IMG/VR virus record: IMGVR_UViG_3300035180_001302 | Location: 1 to 37,295 of that record | Length of the DNA: 37,295 bases | Origin: a virus | Reading direction: 5' to 3' (one strand) | Shown here: piece after piece, positions 1,182 to 30,198 of the stretch | Numbering within the stretch: the first letter of the stretch is position 1 | Layout: each line of letters opens with the position of its first letter | Translations under genes and position numbers: made by a program | The notes under the pieces: generated by a model | What the model was told of the DNA's origin: nothing | Database searches by the model: none | What the model saw: only the letters and a program-made list of their open reading frames with translations

Positions 1182-1274
1182 ATGTATGCTATATCAAAAT
1201 TCAAGAAAAGAGTAAATCAAGTGGGGTAAAAATAGCCCCTGTGTATAAATTAGCTTTTATATCTGATACTAATA

Positions 1275-1283
1275 TGTTATACT
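1275..1283 (+). promoter_or_regulatory. Extended -10 element upstream of structured RNA A
   Basis: TGTTATACT is an extended -10 (TGn plus TATACT, 5 of 6 matches to TATAAT). No good -35 lies 16-18 bases upstream (TTTTAT), which is tolerable for an extended -10. It would start a transcript near 1290, just before the first paired element of the RNA. Confidence 0.4.
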
Positions 1284-1289
1284 GCAACC

Positions 1290-1930
1290 AGTCACAGGTT
1301 GTATTTCGAAGGGCTTGGATTGGGCGATGTCCTAGATTAAATAATTGTGCAGCATATCTTGGGGTTGAGATATGCAATAACTGTAACCGACCTAACAATC
1401 CAAGCCCTTGGGGATAAAACCCCATCGCTACACTTTGTAGCAGATTGATTGTTTGGCTTCCAAGGACGGGTTGGTAACTTTACTGTTTGCGAACCCCATC
1501 CGGCCAGATAATCGCCCTTGATAATATCTATGAGCTTTGACGTGGGGGTTGTGTGGATGGAGATAACAGGATGTTGCTTTATATTTATATAAGTAACATC
1601 GGCAACGCGTTATCGAGGTGCAGTTGCCCGTACATCCACCCCCTCGTCAACGCTTATGGCGTTGAGAACTAATGTTTGCTAAGAAGCTTCGGATCCCCAG
1701 CGCAGTCCACAGGCAATGATGCGGATTGCGCCAGGGATTTCTGAATCCCTTGTTCTTTGAGCGATGGAGGAAAGCTTCGGGGTAGTATGCGACTTCGTAT
1801 TTTTTCTGTGGATTTAATAAATACCCCACGGAATAAACGGTAGTGGTAACGGAGGCGGTATACACGCCCATTGCCTTTATTTATGGTAGAAGCATCTCCT
1901 CCATCGCTCAGGGCACAAACCCTGTTTCTA
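1290..1930 (+). ncRNA. Large structured noncoding RNA candidate A (about 640 nt)
   Basis: No credible gene lies in this stretch, but it is full of base-paired elements. Clear stems are 1310-1322/1396-1408 (13 bp perfect) enclosing 1352-1359/1368-1375; hairpins 1409-1413/1420-1424 and 1427-1431/1437-1441; 1468-1472/1492-1496; 1506-1510/1525-1529; the long arm 1538-1559/1633-1649; 1570-1579/1591-1600; 1648-1653/1659-1664; 1700-1708/1723-1731; 1734-1739/1744-1749; and 1758-1771/1897-1910 (14 bp perfect) enclosing 1779-1784/1822-1827 and 1854-1857/1865-1868. Stems 1562-1567/1609-1614 and 1601-1606/1623-1628 interleave, forming a pseudoknot inside the long arm. The non-Watson-Crick pairs I found inside stems are G-U on the plus strand and would be A-C on the minus strand, so the RNA is most likely rightward. 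Size and complexity recall the GOLLD and ROOL classes found in phages; I could not confirm either. Confidence 0.65.
1909..1927 (+). terminator. Weak terminator-like hairpin at the end of RNA A
   Basis: CAGGG (1909-1913) and CCCTG (1920-1924) form a 5-bp stem with loop CACAAA, followed by TTTCT. It shares two bases with the 14-bp stem 1758-1771/1897-1910, so the two compete slightly. It is weak as a rho-independent terminator but well placed between RNA A and the gene starting at 1961. Confidence 0.3.
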
Positions 1931-1960
1931 AGACTGTCGAGGTGGGAAGCGGCAGGGACT

Positions 1961-2461
1961 TTGAAAAAACTATATACAATTTTACTTCTTGCGCTTTTGG
2001 TAGTAGCCACGCTGACGAAAGTAAGCACGGCGAATCTTCAAGCAAAGAGTAATTCAAATGAAAAGGAAGTCGGCATCCCGAAAGAAAAAGAAGACGGTCT
2101 TGACCGTTGGATTGAGAGTCTCGTCAAAGCGGAAAGTTCCGGTCAAGAAGATATCGAAATTATCGACGCAAACGGGAGGTGGTCGCGCGGCTGCCTCCAG
2201 TTCCAGGATGAAACTATTCGGAGCTATTCCGCTCTCTTGGGCTATTTTGTGGGCACGTCAACAGAAGACATTAGGTCGGTTGCCCTCAGCTGTGAAGCGT
2301 CCAAACGATTAGCCCGTTCAATGCTTTTAGATGATTATAAAAACTGGAGAAACTGGTACACATCAAGCAAAAAAATTGGCCTCCCGCCGAGGGTGGAACC
2401 AAGAGCAGAGGGCTCGACAGAGCGAAAGGCTAATAGCTGTTTATCGCGCAAAGCAATATAA
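1961..2461 (+). CDS. Secreted lysozyme-like (transglycosylase-type) protein
   Basis: A 166-residue protein read from the TTG at 1961. This start puts a typical signal peptide first: KKLYTILLLALLVVATL, then VSTA. A longer version starting at 1871 would bury that signal and overlap RNA A. Residues about 47-115 look like a lysozyme-superfamily fold: IESLVKAESSG carries a probable catalytic Glu (about residue 58), followed by NGRWSRGCLQFQ. It would cut cell-wall glycan outside the membrane. The last 25 residues are basic and poorly conserved-looking, and they overlap the next frame. GGCAGGGA just before the TTG is a weak ribosome site. Family and catalytic residue are inferred from motif shape; degradation of a different glycan is possible. 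Confidence 0.6.
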   Translation: MKKLYTILLLALLVVATLTKVSTANLQAKSNSNEKEVGIPKEKEDGLDRWIESLVKAESSGQEDIEIIDANGRWSRGCLQFQDETIRSYSALLGYFVGTSTEDIRSVALSCEASKRLARSMLLDDYKNWRNWYTSSKKIGLPPRVEPRAEGSTERKANSCLSRKAI

Positions 2462-2871: not shown

Positions 2872-2901
2872 TTGACATAGAATCCGTAGTTCTATTAGGA
2901 T
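2872..2901 (+). promoter_or_regulatory. Sigma-70-like promoter for structured RNA B
   Basis: A perfect TTGACA (2872-2877) is followed, after 18 bases, by TAGGAT (2896-2901). It starts inside the stop region of zinc-finger gene 2 and points into a 780-base stretch without genes. Predicted transcription would begin near 2908. Confidence 0.55.
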
Positions 2902-2907
2902 AATGGC

Positions 2908-3588
2908 AGGAAATCGTCATATGCTCCTCTTTTCCGAGCCGCTTGTGTTGGTTCCATCTCCGCCCTCTTATAAAGAGGGAGAGGGAAGAGAGGTGGATCC
3001 AACAGAGGCGGTTTTCATTTAACAACTAGCGAGCCAACGCATTCCCGTTCGTGGGCAACTTCTATCTGCAAGACCCACCGGTACGGTTGTTCTGGTTTTG
3101 GTTAAGCGTAAGCGGCAAAGCATAGAAAGAAGAAGTAGGCCTAGGCTGAACCTTTCGCTATGGTTGCCGACCGCCCCATCCTCACCCAACCTATCCGCCA
3201 TCGTTCAGCGCCGTAAGGCAAAGTGCGTGGTCACTCAAACATCCCCGATGAAGTTGCGTCTTTGCGCATAGAACTAAACGGGCGGGGGCCGGTAGTCCGG
3301 ATAACAGTGGCAAGCGAGGCAAGGTCAATCATCACATATGGGTGCTCCCAGGGAGCTGATGGTTAGCCTCGCCCCGCTTTCGCACACAATTCAAAGTTGC
3401 GCGCCCGCTAGCACATAGCTTCAAACCTTCCGTGTTAACAACTTGGAAGGTGCAGTGTGTAGGCTGTCGGGTTAAGAAAGACAAATATATAAAAGTAAAT
3501 GGAAGATTGGTGCGCAGAGAGAGCCAGGATGGTAGGTTCTCTGTCTGCTTCTTCAAAGCTATGCCAACACCAATTGTTTTCAAATTTT
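2908..3588 (+). ncRNA. Large structured noncoding RNA candidate B (about 680 nt)
   Basis: No convincing gene lies between 2867 and 3647. The paired elements are 2939-2960/2990-3011, a long imperfect arm capped by 2963-2969/2973-2979; 3051-3055/3074-3078; 3113-3125/3158-3169; 3279-3284/3402-3407 enclosing 3314-3320/3366-3372, 3327-3334/3357-3364 and 3344-3348/3352-3356; 3425-3431/3445-3451; and 3506-3512/3568-3574 with inner 3514-3522/3538-3548. The last arm is followed by TTGTTTTCAAATTTT, a plausible terminator. Wobble positions in 2939-3011 and 3327-3364 are G-U only when read on the plus strand. With the promoter at 2872-2901 this looks like an independent RNA gene. A shorter RNA ending at the T-run at 3012-3015 is also possible. 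I see no tRNA, tmRNA or RNase P signature in it. Confidence 0.6.
2939..3015 (+). terminator. Long hairpin with T-run, terminator-like
   Basis: Arms CCGCTTGTGTTGG (2939-2951) and CCAACAGAGGCGG (2999-3011), continued by TTCCATCTC/GAGGTGGA and CCCTCTT/AAGAGGG, form a stem of nearly 30 bp followed by TTTTCATTT. It may end transcripts from the zinc-finger genes, or be the 5' domain of RNA B. Its length is unusual for a simple terminator. Confidence 0.4.
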
Positions 3589-7500: not shown

Positions 7501-8058
7501 CCGTGCTATACTGTCTAATTATTCCAAAACACAAAAAAACCAATGTCTAAACTAACGAAACAAGAAGCACTCGCCAAGATAGAAGAACTAAAACAGTACA
7601 TTGCAGAAGAAGATAAGAAAGAGTCTAAGACCGTTGGTATCGCCATAAAGTCAACACTAGGCGATATTATCTTCCAATCAACCAAAACAACGATAAAGGA
7701 GGCCATAGCCGAGAAGGGCGATGTCAACTTGTTCAATGCCGACCTACGCGGTGCAGACCTGTCCGGTTCCGACCTACGCGGTTCCGACCTGTTCAATTCC
7801 GACCTGCGCGGTTCCGACCTGTCTGGTTCCGACTTGCGCAGTTCCGACCTGCGCGGTTCAGACCTACGCGATTCCGACTTGTCCGGTGCCGACTTGCGCG
7901 GTGCCGACCTGTACAATGCAAACCTGTTCAATGCCGAGTTGCATAAAGCAAAGTTCTACGGACGTGGAGGGGTTCAACCACTCAAGCGTTCTCAACTTCC
8001 AGATTTCCTAGCAGCATTGGGATTCCTGATAGAGGAATAACCCGAATCACACAATCAG
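7501..8058. repeat. Duplicated pentapeptide-gene unit, copy 2 (copy 1 at 6665-7196)
   Basis: Same block as 6665-7196. At its left edge a 24-residue frame (7476-7550) ends [10 protein letters not shown], the same tail as the gene at 6452-6715. This shows the duplication carried over the 3' end of that gene. Confidence 0.7.
7543..8040 (+). CDS. Pentapeptide-repeat protein, copy 2
   Basis: 165 residues. The N-terminal part has a charged helix (KIEELKQYIAEEDKKES) missing from copy 1. It then has the shared KTVGIAIKSTLGDIIFQSTK and [13 protein letters not shown], about 15 five-residue units dominated by SDLRG and SDLSG, and the same cap AKFYGRGG...[15 protein letters not shown]. Repeat units differ from copy 1 in number and in Ser versus Ala at the first position, so the array has been reshuffled since duplication. 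The structure should be a right-handed beta helix with a negatively charged face (many Asp), suiting DNA mimicry. Function not known. Confidence 0.8.
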   Translation: MSKLTKQEALAKIEELKQYIAEEDKKESKTVGIAIKSTLGDIIFQSTKTTIKEAIAEKGDVNLFNADLRGADLSGSDLRGSDLFNSDLRGSDLSGSDLRSSDLRGSDLRDSDLSGADLRGADLYNANLFNAELHKAKFYGRGGVQPLKRSQLPDFLAALGFLIEE

Positions 8059-8060
8059 GA

Positions 8061-8210
8061 ATGAAGAAATACAAGATAATTTACGCAGATCCACCGTGGA
8101 GTTATCAGAATGGGGGTGTACCAGAGGGTACAGAAGGTTGGGATGTCTGGGGCGACGAAGTAGAAAGCGACATTGCCCTCACCCCCAAGAACCAGTCAAA
8201 AACCAATTAA
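8061..8210 (+). pseudogene. MT-A70-type DNA methyltransferase with its middle deleted
   Basis: 49 residues. It starts MKKYKIIYADPPWSYQNGGV, the N-terminus of MT-A70-family adenine methyltransferases with the catalytic DPPW. It then jumps to EGWDVWGDEVESDI, which is how the C-terminus of the same family looks (GWDVWGNEV). A normal protein is about 180-200 residues, so roughly 130-150 residues are missing, in frame. The junction lies at GAGGGTACAGAAGGT, which could reflect recombination at short repeats. The cofactor and target parts are lost, so no methylation activity is expected. The next two genes are also methyltransferase-related. Either an inactive relic or an assembly join. Confidence 0.7.
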
Positions 8211-8220
8211 ATACAGGAGA

Positions 8221-8313
8221 ATGAATCAAGTAATACAAGGAGACTGTTTGGGAGTAATGAATGATATTCCTGATAAGAGTATTGATATGATACTTTGCGA
8301 TTTACCTTTATGA
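8221..8313 (+). pseudogene. N-terminal stub of a second DNA methyltransferase
   Basis: 30 residues: MNQVIQGDCLGVMNDIPDKS, then IDMILCDLPL and a stop. This is the start of a beta-type N4/N6 methyltransferase up to its catalytic (D/N)PP(Y/F)-like site (usually CDLPYG); the frame ends right at that motif. The TGA overlaps the ATG of the next gene (TTATGA). The stub thus looks like what remains after a deletion joined it to the neighbouring methyltransferase. It has no independent activity, though its translation may feed ribosomes to the next start. Confidence 0.6.
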
Positions 8314-8882
8314 AACAAATGAAATCTTGGCTAAAAACTGGAAGTTTCAACGAAAAAGATGAGTATTATACTCCTGCGATTTTAGTTAAACCTATCCTGA
8401 AGTATGTAAAAGAAAACGCTATTGTGTGGTGTCCGTTTGATACAGAAAACTCAGAGTTTGTTATTGCTTTGAAAGATAAGGGGCATACAGTAATTAATTC
8501 ACATATTTGGCAAGGGCAGGATTTCTTTAACTATGAGCCAGAAAGATATGATTGTATTATTTCAAATCCACCTTTTACAAGAAAACTAGAGGTATTAGAT
8601 AGACTTTATAAATTGAATAAACCATTCGCAATGATATTTGGTTTGCCAATATTAAACTATCAAGAAGTTGGTGATTTCTTTTTAGATAAGGATTTACAAC
8701 TACTAATAGTTGATAAAAAGGTTAGTTTTGATGGGAATACTGCGAGTTTTAATAATAGCTATTTCTGCCATAATTTTTTACCGAAAGATATTATCTTTGA
8801 ACACTTAGAAAATAACAATAGTAAAAAATACTTTATTGGTTCTGGTATGGCTAGCGATAATCCACTTGCAAGGTCGATATAA
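8310..8882 (+). CDS. AT-rich DNA adenine methyltransferase-like protein
   Basis: 190 residues from ATG 8310, which overlaps the TGA of the stub before it. The motif IISNPPF (about residues 90-96) is the catalytic NPPF of N6-adenine methyltransferases; WCPFDTENSEFV earlier resembles a cofactor-binding strand. It starts MKQMKSWLKTGSFNEKDEYY, in the style of phage-borne methyltransferases. Base composition is much more AT-rich than the genes on either side, with many TTA, AAT and AAA codons, so recent transfer is likely. It may protect phage DNA from restriction. Family assignment is good; specificity is unreadable. Confidence 0.7.
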   Translation: MKQMKSWLKTGSFNEKDEYYTPAILVKPILKYVKENAIVWCPFDTENSEFVIALKDKGHTVINSHIWQGQDFFNYEPERYDCIISNPPFTRKLEVLDRLYKLNKPFAMIFGLPILNYQEVGDFFLDKDLQLLIVDKKVSFDGNTASFNNSYFCHNFLPKDIIFEHLENNNSKKYFIGSGMASDNPLARSI

Positions 8883-18753: not shown

Positions 18754-21090
18754 ATGAAATTAGCTTTGGCATTGATAATTAAAAACACAGACGAGGAGGC
18801 TGAGTTATTGGAGAATGGATTATCCGCATCGTACTTCGATGTGGACGGTATATTCATAACCACTACCCCCAAGAGTGAAGACGAGCCCACGTCTCCAAGG
18901 TTGCTTGAGTTGGCTAAAGATTGGAACGCTACCATATCCAGATTCGTTTGGCGTCATGACTTCGCGGCGGCTCGCAACTTCAACTTCTCTCAAGTACCAG
19001 AGGACTACACTCATATTTTGTGGATGGACGCCGATGATGCAATACGCGGGGCAGATAAGATACGGGAAACCATTACAAAGAATCCAGACGTAGACGTGTT
19101 CTATCTCACTTACCTATATGCATTTGATGAAGAGCGGAGACCGACAATCGTTCACCAAAAAGCACAGATAGTTAAGCGTGGGTGTGTGGAGTGGGTAGGG
19201 AGATTGCATGAAGACTTCCGCCCATTACGCTCGGTTATAAATAAATATATTAAAGGCATAGAGCGCCTCCACCTATCAACCCCAGAGCACTTTGAGTCGG
19301 CTAAGGGGCGCAATCTAGAGGTTGCTCTAGCACAAGTATTGTCTGACCCCGATGACCCACGTTCCTACTGGAACTTGGGCAACTCCTACAGTGCCCTTGG
19401 AGAAAGCACTAAGGCAATACACGCATTTGATACCTTCTTAGAGAAATCACAGTCGGACGATGAGAAATATATCGCCAGGATTAGACGGGCGGAGGCGTAT
19501 ATGCTTCTTGGCGATAAGGATAAGGCACTAGCAGAAACACAGTACGCCATAGGCTTAAAGCCCATGTTCCCAGACGCCTATCACCTTGCGGGGAATATTC
19601 TCTACTCTCAGGGCAAATGGGATAAGGCAGCCACGATGTATCGCTCTGGTTTATCCCAACCACCGCCAAACCTAGATATTTTAGTATTTAATCCCCGCTC
19701 ATATGATTATGATCCGATGATAAATTTAGCTAAGTGCTATTTTCAGATGTCTATGCCAACCCTTGCCCTGCCGCTAATTAAGGGAGCATATAAGGTCAGC
19801 CCATCTCCGTCATTAAAGAAATTAGTTACCGAGATGACTCGTGAGGCGAAAAATTTTGATGAGGTTGTTGCGCTCATTAAAAAGTTGGGCAAGATAGCCG
19901 ATAAGGAGAAACTACGTACAGCCCTAGCTAAAATTCCCAAGAAGTATCAGTCTCACCCAGCAGTATGCAACCTACGCAATAACGTCTTTATAAAGAAAAC
20001 ATCCAGCGGGAAAGACATATCTATTTATTGTGGGTTCACCGAGGAGGTGTGGAACCCAATTACCGCAAAAACTAAGGGAATAGGGGGAAGTGAGGAGGCG
20101 GTTATTTGGTTGTCTCGACTACTTACTCAAATGGGCTGGAATGTTGATGTATATAACAACTGTGGCTACGCAACTAAAAAGTACGACGGGGTTACATATC
20201 ATCCGTTCTGGGAGTTTAATCACCGCGATAAGACAGACATACTATGGATTTGGCGTAGCCCTAAGCTATGTGATTATGAATTAAACGCCTCAAAAATTAT
20301 TGTAGACGTACACGATGTTATTCCCCCTGGAGAGTTCACTCCCGAGCGACTCAAGAAGATAGACCATGTGTTTGTAAAGTCGAAGTTCCATAAGTCTTTA
20401 TTCCCCAATGTGCCAGATGAGAAGTTTGTCGTTATACCGAATGGAATAGACTCTCAATTATTCGCGGGTGAATTTAAGAAAGACCCCAACTTGGTCATTA
20501 ACACTTCCTCCCCAGACCGCTCCATAGAGGCGTTTTGCGAGATAGCCGAGAGAGTTAAAAAGGTTATCCCCGAAGCCAAGTTCAAATGGGCTTATGGATG
20601 GAACGTTTTTACGCCAGCTCACGCTAATGATTCTATTGCCATGAAGTGGAAGGAGGGCATGGAGAAAAAGATGGTAGAAGTCGGAGTAGAGGAGCTGGGA
20701 AGATTGGGACACGATGAAGTAGCCAAAATGTATCAGGATGCCAACATATTCCTTTATCCTTCCGAGTTTGCGGAGATTGACTGCATATCACTATCTAAAT
20801 CTATGGCTGCTGGGGCAATACCAGTAACGACCGATTTCTCTGCTATGGGAGATAAGGCTGGACACGGTGGGTACTTCTACCATTCCGATAAGACCAAGGA
20901 TACGTGGGGAAAGACCCTAGAGCATTCAGTCCACGATGATAAAATGATTGCCGAGATGTCGGATAAGGTAATAGAGCTCATCCGCCACCCAGAAACAAAC
21001 AATGGTATGCGTCAGTGGGCGCAAAAAACGTTTGATTGGAACCATATTGCCAAGGTGTGGGATGGAGTGTTTAATGAATCCAATGGATGA
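18754..21090 (+). CDS. Two-domain glycosyltransferase with TPR linker
   Basis: 778 residues. Residues 1 to about 190 form a GT2-like (GT-A) domain, with LALALIIKNTDEEAELLENG at the start and the DxD-type ILWMDADDA near residue 92, which binds metal and nucleotide sugar. About 200-310 are TPR repeats (YWNLGNSYSALGESTKAIHA and two more). About 422-778 form a GT-B (GT4-like) domain: GIGGSEEAVIWLSRLL, FVVIPNGIDSQLF, and the donor-site SEFAEIDCISLSKSMAAGAI with the spaced Glu pair. It should transfer two kinds of sugar onto one acceptor. Inside a virion gene cluster the acceptor may be a structural protein or host surface glycan. Both catalytic cores look intact. Confidence 0.85.
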   Translation: MKLALALIIKNTDEEAELLENGLSASYFDVDGIFITTTPKSEDEPTSPRLLELAKDWNATISRFVWRHDFAAARNFNFSQVPEDYTHILWMDADDAIRGADKIRETITKNPDVDVFYLTYLYAFDEERRPTIVHQKAQIVKRGCVEWVGRLHEDFRPLRSVINKYIKGIERLHLSTPEHFESAKGRNLEVALAQVLSDPDDPRSYWNLGNSYSALGESTKAIHAFDTFLEKSQSDDEKYIARIRRAEAYMLLGDKDKALAETQYAIGLKPMFPDAYHLAGNILYSQGKWDKAATMYRSGLSQPPPNLDILVFNPRSYDYDPMINLAKCYFQMSMPTLALPLIKGAYKVSPSPSLKKLVTEMTREAKNFDEVVALIKKLGKIADKEKLRTALAKIPKKYQSHPAVCNLRNNVFIKKTSSGKDISIYCGFTEEVWNPITAKTKGIGGSEEAVIWLSRLLTQMGWNVDVYNNCGYATKKYDGVTYHPFWEFNHRDKTDILWIWRSPKLCDYELNASKIIVDVHDVIPPGEFTPERLKKIDHVFVKSKFHKSLFPNVPDEKFVVIPNGIDSQLFAGEFKKDPNLVINTSSPDRSIEAFCEIAERVKKVIPEAKFKWAYGWNVFTPAHANDSIAMKWKEGMEKKMVEVGVEELGRLGHDEVAKMYQDANIFLYPSEFAEIDCISLSKSMAAGAIPVTTDFSAMGDKAGHGGYFYHSDKTKDTWGKTLEHSVHDDKMIAEMSDKVIELIRHPETNNGMRQWAQKTFDWNHIAKVWDGVFNESNG

Positions 21091-21379
21091 AATACCGACA
21101 AACAACCTAGAGGCAGGAGTAGCCCTATTCCAAGCCCTCAACCTATCAATTAGCGATAGGGCAGACCCTATAAAAATGGATCAGGTTAAAGAAATAGGCG
21201 AGTATCTTAACTCTCACCCAGAACCAACATGGCTAATAAGAACACTGGTGGATAAAAATAAAGTTCCTAATCGTTCCAACCTAGAACATATCCTTTCCTA
21301 TGTGCGCATGGATAAGGAAAGAATGGCGAAACAGGCGGAAATAGATGCATTAACCAATGGCTTAAGATACTACCTATGA
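21074..21379 (+). CDS. Small helical protein of unknown function
   Basis: 101 residues from ATG 21074 (ATG 21083 is an alternative), overlapping the end of the glycosyltransferase gene by 17 bases. Acidic start (MNPMDEIPTNNLEAGVALFQ), helical end (MDKERMAKQAEIDALTNGLR). No motif recognised. It overlaps the next gene by ATGA. Confidence 0.55.
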   Translation: MNPMDEIPTNNLEAGVALFQALNLSISDRADPIKMDQVKEIGEYLNSHPEPTWLIRTLVDKNKVPNRSNLEHILSYVRMDKERMAKQAEIDALTNGLRYYL

Positions 21380-21753
21380 GCGAATTTATGGTTCCGTCGT
21401 CCGTAAAGATAAATCCCATTGGCACTTCTTCTTCCGCATCATCGTCGTCGGTAGAGGTTACAAATTTCCCGAGTAATCAGTTGGTATCTTTATCCATACC
21501 AACCACCATAGCTACCTACTCTGTGAAGATAACAGCTACTGCCCAAATTGTTGCTACTGATGCTACCACCAAGGAAGTCTCTATCATCAACACCTCTGAT
21601 ACTGATACTCTCTATGTTGGAGCGTCTGGCGTATCAACCTCTACTGGTATACCGGTACTACCGTTTAGTTCAGTAACTCTTAAAACCACCGCCGCCATTC
21701 ACGGCGTGTCGAACGGTGGCGAGATAGATGTGCGTTATATTAAATATTCATAA
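21376..21753 (+). CDS. Small Ser/Thr-rich virion protein (candidate)
   Basis: 125 residues. Ser-rich start (GTSSSASSSSVEVTNF), then a beta-sandwich-like run typical of small phage surface or fibre-associated proteins (VSIINTSDTDTLYVGASGV, LPFSSVTLKTTAAIHGVS). It could decorate the capsid or sit on the tail. The many Ser and Thr residues are possible sugar acceptors for the nearby transferase (speculation). Confidence 0.6.
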   Translation: MSEFMVPSSVKINPIGTSSSASSSSVEVTNFPSNQLVSLSIPTTIATYSVKITATAQIVATDATTKEVSIINTSDTDTLYVGASGVSTSTGIPVLPFSSVTLKTTAAIHGVSNGGEIDVRYIKYS

Positions 21754-28575: not shown

Positions 28576-30198
28576 ATGGTAACAGACGACCTTATCAAAA
28601 AGTACGGTGGCACGATTGAGCCTACCAAACCATTAGGCCCAGCCTTCGCGTTACCAGAAGAATCGAAAAACGCCCTAGCAGACATTATAGCCCGTGATAG
28701 ATTCAGGGCGGCTGTATCCTCTCCAGACGTTCCATCTGCCCCAACGGCAACCAATTTAGTTCCAGGAACAATGGCTACGTATGCCAGTTTGCAGGAAGAC
28801 CCACTCAACCTGAAGGCAAATATCTGGAACGCACCTGGAGACGCCTGGAATGCAGTCTCCGGTGCCTTTTCCAACCTAGGCAATAAACTATCGAACAGTT
28901 TTGACACAACAGACACATCGGCCGGTTCCCTGCTTGGAAAGGGATTGGAGAATGTGGGTGCATTGGCTGGTGCTGTATTCTCCCCCATCTCTGCCCTATT
29001 CGAGGGTGCTAAAGATATTCCCATATTGGGTTCAATTAGTAAGGCCATCTCCGCTCCCTTTGAAGCCGCTGGAGAACTATCCGGCCACGCAGGCGCTGCA
29101 TTACTTAATGATATCCCAGACTTTATCATGTCTGAAAAAACTAAAAGAGACCTAGAGCCAGGTGTGAGGGATATATTCTCCTTGGCGGGTCAGATTGCTC
29201 TTGGGGGAGCGGCGGATGGTATTGGTAAAAAAGTTATCCCCAGCGAAATAGATGGTACTAAGTTTGAACAGATAAAAACAGAGATAGGGAATACCAACCC
29301 AGAGTTTCTGCCAGAGGTAGATAAACTTGGGGCAAAAACAGTTGCTAATATGGTAGACAAACACGGACCCTTAGATGCCAAGGAAATAATTATTGCCTCC
29401 ATACGCAAGGCAAAGGGAATACCTGACCCAACAGTATCAGAACTAAAACCAGGGGTTGAAACTAACCCAGCGGTGTCAGAACTAGGGTCGGGGGTTGAAA
29501 CTAACCCAACCGTTGCACAACCCGAAATTATTGCACCCGAGCCCAAAACAAACGTGGTTGCAACCGATAAAACTGCTGACGCAATAGATAATATCCCCGA
29601 ATCTAAAGCGGTGGAGAATGTAGTTACTGAAACACCTCCGGATGCTGCTCCAATGACGCGCGAGTATATACCGAATAAAATGGCACTGGATATACAGGAT
29701 AAAGCAGTCAAAAATGACCTACTTGCAGACCCTGTGCAGGCAGCAGCACATGAGAAAATGAACGTAGACTTGGCCAAAAAGTATGCGGTTGACTTGGCCA
29801 ACTTAGACCAGCCCAGAGCTATGCGTATCTTGACCGGAGAGGAGGCCGTTCCGCCCAATACGACTATTGGTGCGATAACAAAAGCGTTGGCAGACAAAGC
29901 AACCATAGACAGAGACCAGGCGACTATAGATTTTCTATCTAGCTCGCGGAACCTTGCTCATAAATCAGTAACCTCTGGAGCGCAAGAGTTGCGTGTTTTG
30001 CAAGAGTTCAGCGATTCCCCAGTTGATGCTATACGCGAGATAAATAAAGCTGCCACCGAATATGTGGCTAAGAGAGATAAGATAAGCAGTCCCGAAAAAG
30101 CAGTAAATGCCGAGAAGGATAAAATAATAGAGTCAACACGCAAATCTATGCCCACAAAACAAAGTTGGTCGGACTTTATAGATAGTATAAAATGCTAA
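28576..30198 (+). CDS. Internal virion (ejection) protein B, candidate
   Basis: 540 residues. Hydrophobic/Ala-rich segments at about 105-200 (LGKGLENVGALAGAVFSPIS, IALGGAADGIGKKV) could insert into a membrane. About 285-320 hold a tandem repeat (GVETNPAVSELGSGVETNPT). The C-terminal half is charged helix. Together with A and C it forms the usual set of three large proteins that build a channel for DNA entry. Inference from order, size and composition. Confidence 0.55.
   Translation: MVTDDLIKKYGGTIEPTKPLGPAFALPEESKNALADIIARDRFRAAVSSPDVPSAPTATNLVPGTMATYASLQEDPLNLKANIWNAPGDAWNAVSGAFSNLGNKLSNSFDTTDTSAGSLLGKGLENVGALAGAVFSPISALFEGAKDIPILGSISKAISAPFEAAGELSGHAGAALLNDIPDFIMSEKTKRDLEPGVRDIFSLAGQIALGGAADGIGKKVIPSEIDGTKFEQIKTEIGNTNPEFLPEVDKLGAKTVANMVDKHGPLDAKEIIIASIRKAKGIPDPTVSELKPGVETNPAVSELGSGVETNPTVAQPEIIAPEPKTNVVATDKTADAIDNIPESKAVENVVTETPPDAAPMTREYIPNKMALDIQDKAVKNDLLADPVQAAAHEKMNVDLAKKYAVDLANLDQPRAMRILTGEEAVPPNTTIGAITKALADKATIDRDQATIDFLSSSRNLAHKSVTSGAQELRVLQEFSDSPVDAIREINKAATEYVAKRDKISSPEKAVNAEKDKIIESTRKSMPTKQSWSDFIDSIKC

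Follow-up and report, generated by a model that had tools for sequence, protein, structure and literature searches.

A strongly structured gene-free region in an uncultured SU10-like phage and a candidate large noncoding RNA

Positions 1290-1960 of the virus record analysed here form a real, statistically strong structured zone that contains no credible gene. We interpret this zone as a large free-standing structured noncoding RNA that would be transcribed rightward and act in trans, with a function that we can only infer; this interpretation stands at about an even chance. The RNA is most likely of the same kind as GOLLD, ROOL and the noncoding RNA of Vibrio phage ICP1, but would form a class of its own, so far with a single member. 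The record, in its full length of 37,295 bp referred to as the window, comes from an uncultured phage and encodes a major capsid protein of the SU10 type, a terminase, Erf and an exonuclease. Its nearest capsid relatives found in IMG/VR are ~67% identical or less, and those among GenBank phages ~26%.

Fold, strand and boundaries of the region

The plus strand of 1290-1960 folds with an energy of -266.1 kcal/mol, compared to a mean of -205.1 kcal/mol (sd 6.9, best -223.7) for 100 dinucleotide shuffles, which corresponds to a z of -8.8 with 0 of the 100 shuffles as stable. The minus strand reaches a z of -5.7, and the difference between the strands, in favour of plus, is matched by one shuffle in 100. 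Three coding control segments of the window have z values from +0.4 to -1.6. In a 600-nt fold scan covering five related genomes, the segment from 1201 onwards is the most extreme of the window (z -7.5) and ranks third of 1202 overall, with values of -6 to -7 also reached elsewhere in these genomes. A 200-nt scan does not single out the region because its structure is long-range. Short ORFs overlapping 1290-1960 gave 0 PHROG matches, and a conserved protein frame through the region, which the first-pass annotation had named in advance as counting against an RNA, was looked for in PHROG and not found. The earlier description of a heavily structured stretch lacking a credible gene is thus confirmed, by the fold statistics as well as by two perfect 14-bp stems. 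In being gene-free and structured far above chance over a length within ~500-1000 nt, the region resembles large structured phage ncRNAs in general.

The region occupies the gap where leftward and rightward gene blocks diverge. The genes at 145-994 are leftward and most of those beyond 1961 rightward, early genes followed by structural genes. The features of the region and its flanks, all on the plus strand, are as follows.

1256-1283 (+): extended -10 promoter-like site from a consensus scan, TTTATA-16-TATACT with TG preceding the -10
1290-1960 (+): predicted large structured RNA (fold z), with a 3' end at ~1930, 1960 or beyond
1290-1308 (+): 5' side of the weak helix that closes the MFE fold, pairing with 1943-1960
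1309-1409 (+): arm 1, perfect 14-bp stem 1309-1322/1396-1409 and inner 9-bp hairpin 1352-1375
1374-1397 (+): 24-nt stretch GCAATAACTGTAACCGACCTAACA, 22/24 identical to the variable part of the ICP1 ncRNA, same strand
1410-1445 (+): two small hairpins in the predicted fold (1410-1423, 1424-1445)
1446-1514 (+): arm 2, 13-bp stem 1446-1458/1502-1514 with four G-U pairs
1528-1659 (+): arm 3, with pseudoknot 1562-1567/1609-1614 and 1601-1606/1623-1628
1682-1745 (+): arm 4, stems 1688-1697/1734-1745 and 1700-1708/1723-1731
1750-1918 (+): arm 5, 17-bp stem 1755-1771/1897-1913 (14 bp Watson-Crick) and branched interior
1909-1929 (+): weak terminator-like hairpin CAGGG-CACAAA-CCCTG followed by TTTCT, competing with the base of arm 5
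1961-2461 (+): downstream ORF of 166 aa with a TTG start and a hydrophobic N-terminus, the next plausible gene
Motif of the RNA region: TGTAACCNACCTAACA

The stems that had been listed from the sequence alone are present, with coordinates accurate to within one base. The stem given as 13 bp (1310-1322/1396-1408) is in fact a perfect 14 bp, and the perfect 14-bp stem 1758-1771/1897-1910 extends to 17 bp when G-U pairs are included. These two stems anchor arms 1 and 5; a stem of at least 13 bp occurs in 0 of 300 dinucleotide shuffles. The closing helix is weaker, with pair probabilities of 0.58-0.92 and many G-U pairs. An alternative pairing joins 1418-1423 to the inner loop of arm 1, GGGGTT at 1361-1366. 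All four segments of the nested pseudoknot in arm 3 are perfectly complementary as claimed, but chance alone readily yields pseudoknots of this kind: a 6+6 H-type pseudoknot occurs somewhere in the region in 71% of shuffles, and within arm 3 in 3.8%, and we rejected it as strong stand-alone evidence. The region holds nine 6+6 pseudoknot pairs, which is unusually many (8/600 shuffles).

The first-pass annotation also held that non-Watson-Crick positions inside stems are G-U on the plus strand. This is mostly the case, but not exclusively, as there are seven one-by-one mismatches, one of them A-C. The predicted fold contains 32 G-U among 235 pairs, and the choice of an MFE structure itself tends towards G-U anyway. 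The proposal that the RNA is read rightward is nevertheless well supported by the fold statistics, the strand asymmetry and the position of the promoter. The extended -10 announced just upstream lies at 1256-1283, and the start predicted from it, ~1290, is the first base of the predicted closing helix; promoter-like sites overall occur at a chance-level count. Upstream of this promoter, two palindromes at 1141-1184, CTATTTATTAAATAG and AGTAGTTGTCAACTACT, are operator-like in appearance.

At the other end, the weak terminator noted in the first pass corresponds to CAGGGCACAAACCCTG TTTCT at ~1909-1929 and scores below the threshold of the terminator scan. That scan found no strong terminator between the RNA region and the 1961 ORF, and downstream a strong hairpin followed by a T-run appears next at 2939-3015. 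The latter belongs to a separate plus-strand element at 2872-3015, a promoter-like TTGACA-18-TAGGAT followed by a near-perfect 73-nt hairpin (2939-3011) and the T-run, possibly a small RNA or an attenuator. The 1961-2461 ORF has a lysozyme-like motif recognised by eye only, and Pfam, PDB sequences, phage tblastn and PHROG gave it no family support; a single comparison with a protein of the related phage G006 showed a 31-aa similarity (E 0.037).

Known RNA families and the ICP1 RNA

The suggestion that the RNA might belong to GOLLD or ROOL found no support when checked with Infernal against Rfam. A cmscan of all families, at gathering and at permissive thresholds (E up to 5), returned only chance miRNA and snoRNA matches. 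A direct search of the record with the GOLLD model RF02032, run up to E 10, found nothing, in agreement with cmscan, and the ROOL model RF03087 gave none in cmscan or in a direct search, the latter lacking a positive control match. OLE RNA (RF01071) was likewise not matched in the cmscan. The group I intron model RF00028 is silent in the window record, and the identical search finds the group I intron of the related phage G010 (G010:C1:12205-12428, minus strand) at E 3e-21. The first pass had also stated that the window lacks a tRNA, and indeed none was found. With neither a model match nor a tRNA, we therefore do not class the region as GOLLD, ROOL, OLE or an intron.

There are nonetheless likenesses in kind. 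GOLLD is also a large, ornate phage RNA, but the window RNA is shorter and has neither a match to the model nor a tRNA nearby; a location near tRNA genes is usual for GOLLD, not obligatory. OLE resembles the window RNA as a large multi-arm RNA of ~600 nt, and differs in that the window RNA lies in a phage, not in a bacterial ole locus, and has no Rfam match. ROOL is ~600 nt long, multi-arm, pseudoknotted and phage-encoded (PMC12286853), all of which the window RNA resembles, again without a model match or nearby tRNA. A further trait by which a ROOL or GOLLD RNA would be recognised is an RNA-only homo-oligomeric cage, assessed by mass photometry or cryo-EM as in PMC12286853.

The nearest analogue and best studied parallel is the ncRNA of Vibrio phage ICP1 (HQ641347). 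This RNA of ~800 nt between gp139 and gp140 is the phage's most abundant transcript; it is gene-free and highly expressed, and ICP1, whose lysis cluster it adjoins, carries no tRNAs (PMC7567579). Like the window RNA it has no Rfam match above the gathering score, and both are large gene-free regions in phages without tRNAs. The ICP1 RNA adjoins lysis genes, and the window RNA possibly does so too, provided that the 1961 ORF encodes a lysis protein. In contrast to the window RNA, the ICP1 RNA has a strong terminator, and its fold z is only -2.2 compared to -8.8. Fold z-scores are thus no reliable identifier of such RNAs.

The two RNAs have in common the 24-nt stretch at 1374-1397. Its ungapped score of 18 exceeds the best score of 15 among 1500 shuffled pairs, with a p of about 5e-5 for one comparison, or about 1e-3 once the couple of dozen RNAs in the comparison are allowed for. 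The stretch sits where the ICP1 RNA's own relatives show no conservation, and the conserved blocks of the ICP1 type (ICP1 RNA 142-352, 502-683 and 814-900) are absent from the window, including GGTAAAGCAA..GCAATGCACCTGAGTGACAA and CCAGAAGTAAGACACTGTGAAT, which Vibrio and Shewanella phages have in common. Membership in the ICP1 type, considered on the 24-nt match, was rejected as these blocks are missing; with the shared stretch in the variable part, the match is therefore a lead and not a sign of membership. A resemblance of the same stretch to the conserved segment of 23S rRNA at helices 69-71 was judged to be at chance level.

Clear relatives of the ICP1 ncRNA locus (L100:4098-5108, minus strand) occur in further Vibrio and Shewanella phages (L101-L113). 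They carry conserved blocks such as CCAGAAGTAAGACACTGTGAATRTCTAG, often lie next to tRNAs or HNH genes, and in one case (L103) have two of the blocks in swapped order. The ICP1 ncRNA and its relatives look like an undescribed large RNA family without an Rfam entry.

Homologue searches and structured zones in related phages

A blastn search of 50,697 phage records and of plasmids found no DNA homologues of the region, or only short chance matches with E near 1. Relatives sought through the adjacent protein and through the exonuclease gave none. The major capsid protein led to 27 related loci in IMG/VR, many of them fragments, among which blastn detected no similarity to the RNA. Covariance models of arms 3 and 5, each built from the single sequence, also found no homologue among the capsid relatives, these being weak models that could miss diverged relatives; as a control, covariance model R1 recovers its own source sequence. 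Four 16-mers scanned as exact patterns against IMG/VR gave 42 loci with local matches around the probe only, all inside ORFs. A capsid search of GTDB had no match, and five isolated matches in a GTDB pattern scan were read as chance. With no homologue among the records searched, from which near-identical ones may be missing, the stems stand as predictions, covariation being the standard proof.

Three capsid relatives each have an extreme structured gene-free zone of their own, lying on the same strand as the early recombination genes that follow it (RecT and Erf are named by eye from translations).

G006, 28884-29664 (= L034:8884-9664) (+): zone before a RecT-like gene
G011, about 20960-21472 (= L048:6960-7472) (-): zone of ~500 nt directly upstream of tRNA-Gln (TTG)
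G024, 7593-8376 (L041) (-): zone beside a degenerate tRNA, before an Erf-like gene

The window RNA is no more similar to these zones than to shuffles. By eye, the G006 zone, in a divergent gap before the early genes, is a pair of neighbouring units, and each combines a promoter-like site with a ~90-nt pseudoknot-capable RNA and a T-run. The G011 zone has arms of 18 to 24 bp, and Rfam matches only its tRNA. In G024 the tRNA-like sequence is rejected by ARAGORN; it keeps the acceptor and T arms while the other arms are odd, and is followed by a terminator and then a further structured zone before the Erf-like gene. By analogy, the recurrent position in these relatives favours a free-standing RNA over a leader specific to one gene.

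Interpretation of the region

The main competitor of a free-standing RNA is a giant 5' untranslated region that would act in cis as the leader of the 1961-2461 gene, a gene possibly encoding a lysozyme-like lysis protein. The closing helix would cover 1943-1960 before the TTG, and the timing of translation would depend on folding, a ligand or a protein. The ORF does begin immediately 3' of this helix, and the first strong hairpin and T-run beyond the region lie only at 2939-3015. However, a 670-nt leader would be very long, the helix that would do the gating is weak and G-U-rich, the ORF lacks family support, and the structured zones of the related phages precede different genes. We regard the leader as unlikely, though it is the strongest of the alternatives.

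Two other readings are improbable, to a similar degree. The inverted repeats could work as hairpins of single- or double-stranded DNA, for example in a replication origin or a packaging site, which would fit the better-than-shuffled fold of both strands and the location at a divergence of gene blocks. The preference for the plus strand beyond composition argues against this, as do a GC-skew with no clear turn here and the lack of iterons or direct-repeat arrays. Alternatively, the inverted repeats could have built up by chance and without function while an intergenic stretch decayed. This is consistent with the absence of a homologue and of covariation and with the z of -6 to -7 at other sites in these genomes, but not readily with a stability distributed across several arms, two independent 14-bp stems and a favoured plus strand. 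A divergent or decayed group I or II ribozyme or intron-like element missed by the Rfam models, which the size, multi-arm layout, pseudoknots and intron-bearing relative G010 might suggest, is very improbable given the silent group I model, the lack of any other Rfam match at E up to 5 and surrounding genes that show no interruption.

The free-standing RNA is preferred because no shuffle comes close to its fold and the plus strand is favoured, because of the two long perfect stems and the most extreme 600-nt segment of the window, and because no protein family falls in the region. The predicted start at the very beginning of the closing helix, the structured zones kept by three capsid relatives, one of them directly before a tRNA, and the parallel of the large, gene-free, highly expressed ICP1 RNA point the same way. 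Against it weigh the lack of a homologue and hence of covariation, the comparably extreme values elsewhere in these genomes, a promoter match within chance counts, and the missing strong terminator, so that a discrete RNA is only a prediction. In the mechanism we propose, transcription would proceed rightward from the 1256-1283 promoter at the head of the early gene block, and the RNA would adopt a fold of five or more arms, enclosed by a helix between its 5' and 3' ends. It would be stable enough to accumulate during infection and may act in trans as a machine or scaffold, as suspected for GOLLD, ROOL and the ICP1 ncRNA. Its 3' end, its oligomerisation or host target and whatever advantage the phage gains would likewise be presumed parts of this model.

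A more far-reaching version, which we put forward tentatively, places the RNA in a new class of giant ornate phage RNAs. This class would have no sequence relationship to GOLLD, ROOL, OLE or the ICP1 type, and would have its site in the early region of a group of uncultured SU10-like phages. Such a class would possibly have one short functional site (GCAATRACTGTAACCKACCTAACA) in common with the ICP1 RNA, and several members of the phage group would keep structured RNAs unrelated to each other. To our knowledge, the large structured RNAs described from phages number no more than a handful, none with a known function. If the interpretation is correct, a further unrelated class, together with varied early-region RNAs, would suggest that phages have resorted to large RNAs repeatedly, and would provide new material for studying their structure and function.
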